Assembly: GCF_900105005.1 (NCBI RefSeq)
Contig: NZ_LT629748.1
Location: 372,001 to 436,000 of the forward strand
Direction: 5' to 3'
From: Halopseudomonas litoralis
GTDB lineage: Bacteria > Pseudomonadota > Gammaproteobacteria > Pseudomonadales > Pseudomonadaceae
DNA: 64,000 bases
This document shows, in pieces, positions 24,091 to 27,375 of the stretch. The notes beneath the pieces were generated by a model that was not told the DNA's origin, did not search any database, and was given only the letters and a program-made list of their open reading frames with translations. The translations under genes and the position numbers were made by a program. Position 1 is the first letter of the stretch. Every line of letters starts with the position of its first letter.

Positions 24091-25593
24091 ATGAGCGAAC
24101 AACCGCTGAATGAGCATGCACTGCAAGAGGAAGAGAACAGCCTGATCGCCCTGCGCAAGGAAAAACTTGCGACAGAGCGTGCCAAGGGCAAGGTTTTCCC
24201 GAACGATTTCCGCCGCGACAGTCTGGCGGGCGATTTGCAGAAAAAGTATGCCGACAGCAGCAAGGAAGCGCTGGCCGAAGCCGCTATCCCGGTCAAGGTG
24301 GCGGGGCGCATCATGCTCAACCGCGGTGCGTTCATGGTGCTTCAGGATATGAGCGGGCGAATTCAGGTGTATGTCGATCGCAAGGGTCTGCCGGCGGAGT
24401 CACTGGCTGAGATCAAGACCTGGGATATGGGCGATATCATCGCTGCCGAAGGCACGCTGGCGCGCTCCGGCAAGGGTGATCTGTACGTGCACATGACGGC
24501 AGTCAAACTGCTGACCAAGTCACTGCGCCCTTTGCCCGACAAGCACCACGGTCTGACCGATACCGAGCAGCGCTATCGTCAGCGCTACGTTGATCTGATG
24601 GTCAACGAAGAGACCCGGGATACCTTCCTGGTGCGCTCCAAGGTCATTGCGCATATTCGCAAGTTTTTGGCTGAGCGTGATTTCCTTGAAGTGGAAACCC
24701 CCATGCTGCAGACCATCCCCGGTGGCGCTGCGGCCAAACCCTTCGAGACTCATCACAATGCGCTGGATCTGCCGATGTTCCTGCGGATTGCGCCTGAGCT
24801 GTACCTCAAGCGGCTGGTGGTGGGCGGTTTCGAGAAGGTTTTCGAGATCAACCGCAACTTCCGTAACGAAGGCGTTTCGACCCGGCACAACCCCGAGTTC
24901 ACCATGCTCGAGTTCTACCAGGCCTATGCTGACTACGAAGACAATATGGACCTGACCGAGGAGCTGTTCCGCGAGCTGGCCGTGGCGGTGCTCGGCAGCA
25001 GTGATGTGCCCTACGGTGACAAGGTCTTCCATTTCGGCGAGCCCTTTATCCGACTGTCGTTGTTCGATTCGATTCTGAAGTACAGCCCGGATATCACTGC
25101 CGAAGATCTGCAGGATGTGGAAAAAGCCCGCGCCATCGCGAAAAAAGCCGGTGCCAAACTGCTCGGTCATGAAGGCCTGGGCAAGCTGCAGGTGATGATC
25201 TTCGAGGAGTTGGTCGAGCACCTTCTGGAGCAGCCGACCTTCATTACTCGCTATCCCTTCGAGGTGTCGCCGCTGGCGCGTCGCAACGATGAAGATCCGA
25301 ACGTGACCGACCGTTTCGAGCTGTTCATCGGTGGCCGCGAGATTGCCAACGCCTATTCCGAGCTGAATGACGCGGAAGACCAGGCTGAGCGTTTCCATGC
25401 TCAGGTTGCTGACAAGGATGCTGGTGATGATGAGGCCATGCATTTCGATGCCGACTTCGTCCGCGCCCTGGAATACGGCATGCCGCCCACCGCTGGTGAA
25501 GGTATCGGTATTGACCGTCTGGTGATGCTGCTGACCGATTCACCATCGATTCGCGATGTGATTCTATTCCCGCATATGCGGCCTGAGGTTTAA
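24091..25593 (+). CDS. lysS: Lysyl-tRNA synthetase, class II
   Basis: This enzyme attaches lysine to tRNA-Lys. The 500-residue protein has an N-terminal OB-fold anticodon-binding domain (about residues 55-170, [17 protein letters not shown]) and a class II catalytic core. Motif 1 ends at [17 protein letters not shown], motif 2 is [17 protein letters not shown], and motif 3 is [21 protein letters not shown]. All are complete. ATG 24091 follows CAGGA. It is linked to prfB by 64 bases. Confidence 0.98.
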
Positions 25594-25681
25594 GGATCAG
25601 AACCACCTGCCCATTCTTCGTGGAGCATCTGAGTGGTTCTGTGTAAGGAAAGCGGATTAGGTGGTCTGGTGTGGGTGGCGA

Positions 25682-25780
25682 GGTCGGGGGTGGCCTATGT
25701 CGGACACGCACAAGTACGTCCATGTAGCTCGCGGTTGCCATCCCTGGCAACCGACGGTCCAACATAGGCCACCCCCGACC
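25682..25780 (+). repeat. Hairpin repeat element, copy 1
   Basis: Outer arms at 25682-25700 and 25762-25780 are perfect 19-base inverted repeats; pairing extends inwards to GGAC/GTCC with one mismatch. The 60-base core (25701-25760) contains an inner perfect 9-bp stem, CGGTTGCCA-TCCC-TGGCAACCG, at 25732-25753. The core is present again, inverted, in copy 2, with about five differences, but the outer arms of the two copies are unrelated in sequence. Confidence 0.85.
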
Positions 25781-25913
25781 CCGCTTGTATAGATTGTGCA
25801 GTGATCCGCTTTCCGGATGGTTTGATGTGGAGAGGCTGGCTTTTTCGGATGCCTGTGATTTGGTCCCAATAAAGCGCTAGCTGGAAACATTGATCCACAC
25901 TGAGGCTTACGAG

Positions 25914-26018
25914 CCGGGTCAGGTACCGCTGGGGTCGGACCGTCGGTTGCCAGGGATGGCAACCGCGAGCTACAGGGATGTATTCATGCGTGTCCGGCCC
26001 CAGCGGTACCTGACCCGG
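25914..26018 (-). repeat. Hairpin repeat element, copy 2 (inverted)
   Basis: Outer arms at 25914-25934 and 25998-26018 are perfect 21-base inverted repeats. With the next six bases the stem reaches 27 bp with one T-G wobble. The core at 25937-25996 is the reverse complement of the copy 1 core with few changes, and the inner stem at 25944-25965 is unchanged. The stretch CTACAGGGATGTATTCATG within it is the kind of sequence that recurs in intergenic DNA of several Pseudomonas relatives, from memory. Confidence 0.85.
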
Positions 26019-26091
26019 CCACCTCACAAATCAGCCAGATCAAGGTTTCCCTGCACGGCAACGAGCAGCGGGAACAAGAGGGAGCACCATC

Positions 26092-27375
26092 ATGGCGGTA
26101 AAGCAGAGCGAGCAGTACCAACTGGTGATCCGCAGCCTGTCCGACCGCATTGTTGATGCGCAGGCGCCGATTCGGGTGCTGGACGCCATCAAGTGGGATG
26201 ACAATATCCGTGATCAGTTTTTCCGGGATGGCTGCAGCAAGCTTCCGGATGTCGGTCCGGATTATTACAAGCGTCGCCCTCTGTCCTTTGACCCGGCCGA
26301 GCGTCTGCAGGTGTTTCAGGACATCGAGCGGGATATCACTCGGCAGCTCGGCACCTTCAATCCGGTCGGTCAGATCATGCGCCGGATGTGCCGCGAGTAT
26401 CGCATGGTCATCCGCATGCTCGAGGGGCGCGGTACGCCGGAGATGGGCAGGATCTCGCAGGAGTTGTACGGGTCCGCCTCCGACGCCTTCCATGCCGGCG
26501 ACCCGACCATCACCGACCTGGGCATCACGCTCAGCGAATCGCTGAGCAATATCGGCAATGATCTGGGGCGCGAGCCGAAGACCATTGCTGCCCCCGACGC
26601 CGTAGCTATTTTGCAGGAGCGCATGGACCAGGCGTTTCCGGATGATCAGACGGTGCGTGTTTTCGAGTCTGATGGCATTGTCGCCGATGCCGCCGCCGGC
26701 GCCGATTACATCAAGATCCGCAGTGACGCCATGTTCAACCAGCGCGACCTGAAGATACTCGCGGTGCATGAAGGCATGGTGCATGTGGCGACCAGTCTCA
26801 ACGGTCAGCATCAGCCGATCTGTACCTTCCTGGCCAAAGGCCCGCCGTCGTCTACGGTAACCCAGGAAGGGCTGGCGATTCTGATGGAAATCATCACCTT
26901 CGCCTCCTATCCCTCGCGTCTGCGCAAGCTGACCAATCGTACCCGGGCGATTCAGCTGGCTGAATCCGGTGGCGATTTTCTGGATGTGTTTGGCTTCTAT
27001 CGTGGCGAAGGCTATAGCGATGAAGACAGTTACAATAATGCCAGCCGGGTATTCCGCGGCTCCAGCAGCTATGGTCTGCCATTTACCAAGGACCTGGCCT
27101 ATCTCAAGGGCTTCATTCTGACCTACAACTATATCCAGCTGGCGGTACGCAAAGGCAAGCTGCAGCAGATCCCCTTGCTGTTCTGCGGCAAGACCACGCT
27201 GGAAGACATGCGTACCCTTGGTCAGCTGGTGGAAGAGGGTCTGGTCGTGCCGCCGCGTTACCTGCCAGAGCCCTTTGCTGATTTGAACGCGCTGAGTGCC
27301 TGGATGTGTTTTTCGGGTTTTCTGAGCAATCTCAGCCTCGATCGTATCGAAGCTGATTACGCGAATATTCTCTGA
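26092..27375 (+). CDS. QEGLA-motif protein, DUF1704 (MATCAP-like metalloprotease fold)
   Basis: This 427-residue protein belongs to the bacterial family named flavohaemoglobin expression-modulating QEGLA motif protein (DUF1704). It carries the putative zinc motif HEGMVH (HExxxH, residues 226-231) and QEGLA at 258-262. Animal members of DUF1704 (KIAA0895L/MATCAP) are tubulin tyrosine carboxypeptidases, so a carboxypeptidase-like activity is a reasonable inference. The bacterial substrate is unknown. GGGAG precedes ATG 26092. It is followed 12 bases later by a small membrane protein and then ung. The hmp gene lies 6 kb upstream, in keeping with the family name, but no direct link is shown. Confidence 0.88.
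   Translation: MAVKQSEQYQLVIRSLSDRIVDAQAPIRVLDAIKWDDNIRDQFFRDGCSKLPDVGPDYYKRRPLSFDPAERLQVFQDIERDITRQLGTFNPVGQIMRRMCREYRMVIRMLEGRGTPEMGRISQELYGSASDAFHAGDPTITDLGITLSESLSNIGNDLGREPKTIAAPDAVAILQERMDQAFPDDQTVRVFESDGIVADAAAGADYIKIRSDAMFNQRDLKILAVHEGMVHVATSLNGQHQPICTFLAKGPPSSTVTQEGLAILMEIITFASYPSRLRKLTNRTRAIQLAESGGDFLDVFGFYRGEGYSDEDSYNNASRVFRGSSSYGLPFTKDLAYLKGFILTYNYIQLAVRKGKLQQIPLLFCGKTTLEDMRTLGQLVEEGLVVPPRYLPEPFADLNALSAWMCFSGFLSNLSLDRIEADYANIL

Follow-up and report, generated by a model that had tools for sequence, protein, structure and literature searches.

Two hairpin repeats lie in opposite orientation in the window, a stretch of 64,000 nucleotides from Halopseudomonas litoralis, and, to judge from their sequence, they belong to a YPAL/RU-2-type family known mainly from Yersinia. 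As a kind the repeat, being a YPAL-type element, was known before. The family itself appears to be an old, class-wide one of palindromic chromosomal repeats, of which YPAL/RU-2 of Yersinia, together with the small RNA record Ysr224, would be the known example. In the best explanation, on which our confidence is evenly balanced, this old repeat is kept for a folded form that is bound by RsmA/CsrA; one strand, referred to here as the GGA strand, would be transcribed, and its transcript would be the ligand. The best supported reading is that the folded GGA strand has a role for which the stem matters through its shape alone and the two loops through their actual letters.

The left element (25678..25784) has its GGA strand on the reverse strand and the right element (25913..26019) on the forward strand, with 128 bases between them. 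Each comprises 107 bp (a 28-bp arm, a core of 51 nt and a second 28-bp arm), and they score 101.1 and 102.2 bits, respectively, with R1, a covariance model of 13 own-genome copies that were collected by core similarity (a DNA search, then a pattern search). Upstream lies an open reading frame (24091..25593, forward strand) that we take to be lysS, lysyl-tRNA synthetase; the product of the downstream one (26092..27375, forward strand), the first 100 codons of which served as the query for orthologous loci, is presumably a ‘QEGLA protein’. On the GGA strand, the 5' arm (25757..25784) and the 3' arm (25678..25705) of the left element form inverted repeat I3 on the reverse strand with 93% complementarity, and those of the right element (25913..25940 and 25992..26019) form inverted repeat I2 on the forward strand with 96%. 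The two oppositely oriented hairpin repeats with a shared core that a preliminary description had noted are thus present and slightly larger than stated; the arms of 19 and 21 bases given there correspond to the longest strictly perfect stem runs (19 on the left, 22 on the right), each separated from the core by a G.T pair, and not to the full arms of 28 bp. The cores differ at five places in a comparison of 52 bases and have the inner stem (25732-25753 and 25944-25965) in common, in agreement with the same description.

Hairpin 1 (25732..25753, reverse strand, in the left element; 25944..25965, forward strand, in the right) has the hexaloop AGGGAT, which contains CANGGANG, on a C-G closing pair. 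Hairpin 2 is TACATGGACGTA in the left element (25715..25726, reverse strand), again containing CANGGANG, and TACAGGGATGTA in the right one (25971..25982, forward strand), where it matches the published Rsm consensus (A/U)CANGGANG(U/A). In the GGA-strand consensus of the 13 own-genome copies, a 28-nt arm with terminal GAC is followed by the core and then by GTC and the return arm; the core reads CGTC-[stem]-CANGGATG-[stem']-GAGC-(N)-TACANGGAYGTA-YTYRC-(N)-GCGT. A three-way junction with two hairpins is predicted to cap the long stem. The folding energies computed for the GGA strands as RNA are -85.4 and -88.9 kcal/mol, against -75.4 and -82.3 for their complements, so that the GGA strand is the more stable one by 10.0 and 6.6 kcal/mol. 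Since for all four strands of the two elements none of 200 dinucleotide shuffles reached the native energy (z -9.1 to -10.5), the repeats of the window are not due to chance.

Around each window copy there is an additional, imperfect outer stem in which, counted by eye, 12 of the 13 positions pair: GGAAAGCGGATTA (25647..25659) with TGATCCGCTTTCC (25802..25814) around the left element and GGAAACATTGATC (25883..25895) with GATCAAGGTTTCC (26038..26050) around the right one, all given on the forward strand. Across the genus an outer stem score of at least 20 is reached by 18 of 123 elements and by 1 of 122 controls, and many copies have no clear outer stem. Several further features of the surroundings were noticed on the GGA strand. 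TGCAC flanks the arms, 12-17 nt before them in 37/123 and 1-2 nt after them in 32/123 elements, where 9-10 are expected; GGTTTT stands about 30 nt before the arms in 25/123 (1.8 expected); and the right flank is C- and A-rich and G-poor over about 70 nt (G 0.17-0.24, C 0.32-0.36), a composition that might reflect a Rho-type signal or the 3' end of a facing gene. Unusual forms also occur: in L112:1935-2118, L188:1538-1691 and L178:1935-2086 the core exceeds the usual length by about 50-80 nt with the arms still paired, and the left copy of L100, L046:1671-1751 and L099 look by eye like deletion derivatives, among which are forms that have lost the core and kept the arms, that have lost one hairpin, or in which the left and right copies are fused.

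The family extends far beyond this locus. R1 finds 23 matches (E<=0.1) in the 3.99-Mb genome of the window itself, and, in a sample of relatives, matches at E<=1e-3 in 33 of 58 genomes (own genome counted); within the genus, 28 of 37 genomes have matches at this threshold, with up to 66 per genome. In the sample of Gammaproteobacteria, 72/369 genomes from 65/272 genera have matches at E<=1e-4, and in the sample of the phylum all 17 matching genomes (of 299) are from the class of the window. A pattern search for hairpin 2 gave carriers in Halopseudomonas, Marinobacter, Microbulbifer, Xanthomonas, Stenotrophomonas, Rheinheimera and Shewanella, among the matches listed. The core is therefore not a local duplication, one of the outcomes considered in the preliminary description, and occurs in relatives, Marinobacter included. 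Neither the plasmid (72,556) and phage (50,697) records, searched with two queries, nor the E. coli genomes contain a match to the element at E 1e-5, and a plasmid, phage or E. coli source was rejected on these grounds; a looser plasmid search (E up to 1) gave three weak partial matches. Tandem arrays in the same orientation were seen at G605:C1:94418-95646 (six element matches about 227 bp apart, the last one partial) and, in an uncultured Saccharophagus, at L196:3109-3749 (four copies about 180 bp apart).

The assignment to YPAL/RU-2 is based on the core. RU-2/YPAL, given as a Yersinia palindromic repeat of 168 nt in the available text of PMC2759123, aligns locally over the whole of both window cores with scores of 42 and 45, on the GGA strand only; the maxima of 200 shuffles each are 40 and 41 with means of about 22, and the reverse strand scores 17. 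Common to both are the core elements CGTC, a hairpin with an ANGGAT loop, GAGC, TACATGGATGTA and GGCGT, the same nesting order of the two stems, the intergenic location and the multiple copies, and one own-genome copy (C1:271572-271675) shares GAGCCTACATGGATGTATTTACGGCGT with RU-2 letter for letter. RU-2 folds as a nested palindrome of outer inverted repeat, inner stem and core, and the window elements have an outer stem as well. The accessible part of one review (PMC2229807) reports YPAL from Yersinia and Erwinia carotovora. The present family differs from YPAL in being class-wide, in its longer and freely changing arms, in its outward-facing pairs and in its compensatory evolution in place.

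A second relative is the small RNA family Ysr224 (RF02770), which lies over elements in 9 of 14 loosely scanned loci, below the cut-off and on the strand opposite the GGA strand. At E<=1e-3 it matches in 38/369 class genomes, 36 of which are R1 carriers, and in none of the 369 genomes is its gathering score of 70 bits reached (best among the matches listed, 51.3 bits). Apart from the strand, Ysr224 differs from the element in that its model leaves the long arms unpaired. Transcripts from several Ysr224 copies are reported for Y. ruckeri in the portion of PMC12112432 that was available, and Ysr224 ranks among the 20 most prevalent annotated sRNAs according to the available part of a survey (PMC9029176), which may already count copies outside Yersinia. 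The earlier statement that similar cores had no described function is thus only partly right, as the family is YPAL/RU-2 and Ysr224, described as mobile and transcribed. At its gathering score Rfam gave no match in six loci, and in the window between 25000 and 26900 (E<=10) only matches, microRNA-like ones among them, that fell far short of their cut-offs; the link to Ysr224 emerged solely from the loose scan of loci in other species. A subthreshold match to another Yersinia sRNA, Ysr141 (37.9 bits, cut-off 196), was seen in L314:2906-3103, away from the element.

Likenesses to other systems go less far. REP/BIME elements, in particular CGTC-tagged REPs with RAYT, are also intergenic, near gene ends and present as inverted dimers with a preference for heterodimers, as far as PMC3733652 was available; however, the element has 107 bp and variable arms where the REP unit has 20-40 bp and a GTAG or CGTC tag, although the core does begin with CGTC, and an association with a Y1 transposase was not found. 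TwoAYGGAY (RF01731) likewise has two hairpins with GGA loops, borne by an outer stem that is poorly conserved, and is a predicted CsrA binder in the accessible text of PMC4333381, and its model matched neither in the window between 25000 and 26900 (E<=10) nor in 6 loci at the gathering score or 14 loci at E<=5. The same text describes paired GGA hairpins for the RsmA/CsrA dimer in decoy RNAs of the RsmZ/CsrB type. RsmZ has one match in 34/37 genus genomes, in contrast to the many dispersed copies of the element, for which no promoter excess was found. In the open-licence literature searched, no report was met of a link of the family to CsrA/RsmA or of covarying arms; as far as searches show, its spread, its freely changing arms, its outward pairs and CANGGANG in both loops are new.

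In the arms, the letters vary and the pairing is kept. The 13 seeds are paired at 97.8%, with a covariation score of 0.708 compared with a shuffled mean of 0.171 and at most 0.094 for slid partners, and the arm covariation to be expected from the preliminary description is borne out in these own-genome copies. For the genus, 153 R1 matches in 95 regions, 80 of them taken by place from the best-scoring listed matches, yielded 150 aligned elements and 141 after overlap removal, 13 of which lacked a fixed-letter arm boundary. Among the 128 measured elements, 123 have at least 16 of the inner 20 arm positions paired (a pairing filter that dropped five elements, four of them with a misplaced boundary), and the stem is 28-31 bp long in 90 of these 123. 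Mean identity between the arms of different elements is 0.39 as opposed to 0.30 expected from composition, which indicates that arms are partly shared within subfamilies. The two outcomes that the preliminary description had held to speak against structural selection, identical arms and unpaired arms, were thus not obtained: apart from this partial sharing, the arms differ between copies and pair.

The mismatches reveal which strand folds. Arm positions 3-25 of the 123 genus elements comprise 2597 Watson-Crick pairs, 151 G.T, 15 A.C and 66 others, read on the GGA strand; without the pairing filter, the 120 elements with standard core length have 2523 Watson-Crick, 148 G.T, 17 A.C and 72 others. 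Immediately outside the arms of 120 elements the ratio is reversed (145 G.T, 368 A.C), so that base composition pulls against the excess of G.T within them. For the class set of 132 elements the ratio of G.T to A.C is 196:29; the orthologs of the window elements give 22:1 and 15:3, and our own count of the 13 seeds gives 13:1; arm ends were placed by a score favouring G.T in the class and ortholog sets, and by fixed letters for 151:15 and 148:17. Because a G.T on one strand is an A.C on the other, the one-sided excess means that it is the GGA strand that must fold, and it speaks against the view that mutation alone, acting alike on both strands, maintains the palindromes.

The same two elements can be followed through other species. 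A genus search with the start of the downstream gene matched in 33/37 genomes, from which 30 regions were taken; the R1 scan covered 22 orthologous regions and the own locus, with L097 and the non-carriers L104-L109 outside it. An at least partial R1 match is present in 19 of the 23 scanned loci and both copies in 13, and in these 13 the left copy is on the minus and the right copy on the plus strand relative to the gene, without exception. In G025 and G008 the intergenic DNA at the orthologous place is short and element-free. Arms derived from a pre-existing target palindrome were considered and seem unlikely, as none was seen by eye in these two short regions, which need not represent the ancestral site. 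Paired arm cells amount to 93.0% in 17 right and 97.9% in 13 left copies, against means of 62.9% and 66.4%, respectively, when partners are shuffled between species. Parsimony on a tree of the downstream gene, which has low support at some nodes, counts 61 double changes from pair to pair in the right copy (16 species) and 48 in the left one (12 species), compared with 9.8 and 8.4 after shuffling the right arms among species; L103, with a shifted arm, was included in the pairing count and left out of the tree count. The arms hence change in place and in step. By eye, some arm blocks differ wholesale between species.

Such a pattern might in principle arise without any selection, if template-switch correction during replication kept the arms complementary and recent copying conserved the core. 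The many double changes with few unpaired intermediates (in the right copy, 61 double changes against 14 single changes from pair to mismatch) would fit this process, as would the arm blocks that differ as a whole; but strand-symmetric correction predicts equal numbers of G.T and A.C, which is at odds with the 148:17 obtained without the pairing filter, and the loop letters are fixed across the class while neighbouring stem letters vary. We regard this explanation as very improbable and largely refuted by the strand bias. Selection on a folded structure, one of two possibilities raised earlier, is supported by the near-universal pairing, the compensatory change in place and the one-sidedness of G.T over A.C. 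The other, that of a mobile element acquiring its arms from other places, is not upheld: pair units recur together with their arms, and the arms of the window locus have been altered by substitutions where they stand.

The loops behave in the opposite way to the arms. In 121 parsed genus elements (1/122 was left unparsed by the core parser), the loop is ANGGAN in 118 for hairpin 1 and 119 for hairpin 2, on a C-G closing pair in 118 and 120, respectively. With the same parser, which left 5/132 elements unparsed, the class set has ANGGAN in 100/127 and 114/127, the misses being partly parser failures. Two CANGGANG motifs are found in 112/132 class elements overall and in 20 of the 23 picked by the model alone; the latter is the unbiased count, since hairpin 2 was fixed in the pattern-picked loci. 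Class-wide, CA-NGGA-NG is constant and the stem of hairpin 1 highly variable. The motif bound by Rsm proteins is 5'-CANGGANG, and the consensus for the RsmE dimer is (A/U)CANGGANG(U/A), according to the accessible text of PMC6849547. Paired hairpins with CANGGANG loops, a feature of CsrA/RsmA-binding RNAs, are present in the element.

The form kept by selection would most likely be an RNA copy of the GGA strand, with a long stem in which letters can change provided that pairing is maintained and a three-way junction whose two hairpins would each display CA-NGGA-NG. The two loops may bind one RsmA/CsrA dimer, the long stem presenting the loops and protecting the RNA, and the consequence for the cell could be a local effect on an mRNA or that of a dispersed decoy. 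Carriers of the element have CsrA (PF02599) in 67/72 cases and other genomes in 245/297 (Fisher p 0.028), or 58/59 and 221/255 among near-complete genomes (p 0.0097), both uncorrected for kinship; of the five carriers in which CsrA was not found, four are <90% complete and one is 98% complete. This co-occurrence is supportive but modest, as most of the class has CsrA and the kinship of the genomes is uncorrected. RsmZ is found in 36/37 genus genomes, 34 of them over the cut-off, and since the genus thus has RsmZ as well, a further decoy is not needed. The window genome (G000) has two close RsmZ-like matches (C1:487927-488060 and 488333-488464); of the other 36 genus genomes, 34 have one, G004 two and G014 none.

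The elements are intergenic. None of 100 clusters is spanned by a called gene, and one overlaps a gene end by 34 nt; with gene directions from our own codon-score caller, the neighbours of the 98 clusters for which both were called are convergent in 43 cases, same-direction in 46 and divergent in 9, counts that stand without a genome-wide control. This distribution would suit a structure at the 3' end of mRNAs, a stabiliser or RNase barrier that acts on either strand and has no role for RsmA/CsrA, and the available part of the YPAL review points the same way: upstream genes and the repeat are transcribed together (‘co-translated’ in the text), with a possible effect on RNA stability (PMC2229807). 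Selection, however, acts on one strand only and independently of the strand of the gene (single elements between same-direction genes are sense in 11 and antisense in 8 cases), and a plain barrier needs no fixed CANGGANG loops, so that a 3'-end structure of this kind seems improbable. An intrinsic terminator as the general role was rejected, as terminator-like sites beside the elements show at most a slight excess (downstream 6/122 against 2-4 in shuffled sequence; on the other strand 15/122 against 8-14). So was an independent sRNA gene, as by our own scoring there is no excess of sigma-70-like promoters upstream of the elements on the GGA strand (10/122, controls 14.7).

The RNA reading itself is weakened by the lack of a promoter excess and of a gene-strand preference and by the fact that the only RNA record is on the other strand; moreover, in convergent contexts the transcript of the nearest gene would carry the non-GGA strand. 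The main rival is a role of the folded GGA strand as single-stranded DNA, namely as the hairpin end of a non-autonomous mobile element that is read by a REP/RAYT-like transposase, so that only copies that fold can move. The one-sidedness of G.T over A.C fits single-stranded DNA as well as RNA, the absent gene-strand preference is in line with it, and several observations would fit movement. The copies are many, 39 of 41 two-element clusters have the outward-facing (-+) orientation, and pair units (162-177 bp from start to start, 22 aligned) recur with their arms at unrelated loci in several species and in both orientations; at one such locus the own genome has a pair and G004 one copy, with no match in the other 18 of 20 regions. 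Recurring units and element-free sites together imply that the family multiplies, or once did, and that some copies are old; new copies may stem from single elements or outward-facing pairs that are duplicated or transposed. YPAL, too, is called mobile in the accessible text of PMC2229807, which mentions target duplications of 3-26 bp next to dyad symmetries; for the present family, target duplications were not established.

Moving copies alone, on the other hand, leave unexplained why, at the window locus, many species have maintained the pairing in place, and the element has no match among plasmid and phage records with the two queries. Out of 84 Y1 transposase matches in 40 genomes, 30 loci were compared with the element, and only 2 of them have a weak match to it, a test limited to the Y1 family; of six Y1 loci inspected, five have inverted repeats of their own and one does not, and the weak match of L367 lies inside those repeats. 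An origin from RAYT/TIRYT was rejected, as the association with Y1 transposases is lacking; at first sight one Y1 subgroup had seemed to follow the carriers. The transposase genes of L359, L364 and L350 lie between long inverted repeats of their own that do not resemble the element, and the GGGGTCAG-type ends of L350 (S. maltophilia) resemble the GGGGWSAS TIRs published in PMC3733652, in the part available. Overall, a role as single-stranded DNA in transposition appears rather unlikely, and an RNA copy of the GGA strand bound by RsmA/CsrA is preferred.

In its widest and more tentative form, which we consider possible and by no means probable, the RNA reading makes the family a dispersed layer that addresses or buffers RsmA/CsrA beside RsmY/Z and CsrB/C, with tens of double docking hairpins per genome in many carriers across Gammaproteobacteria, stems that evolve by compensatory change and some copies at fixed places in most of the genus. 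If true, an orphan repeat and the orphan sRNA family Ysr224 would become one testable object, and a mobile-looking element would carry two ready-made sites for a global regulator. The element comes with a defined strand and structure, with letters that hardly vary and with a conserved locus for tests, and the family provides a natural series of long stems in compensatory evolution in place.
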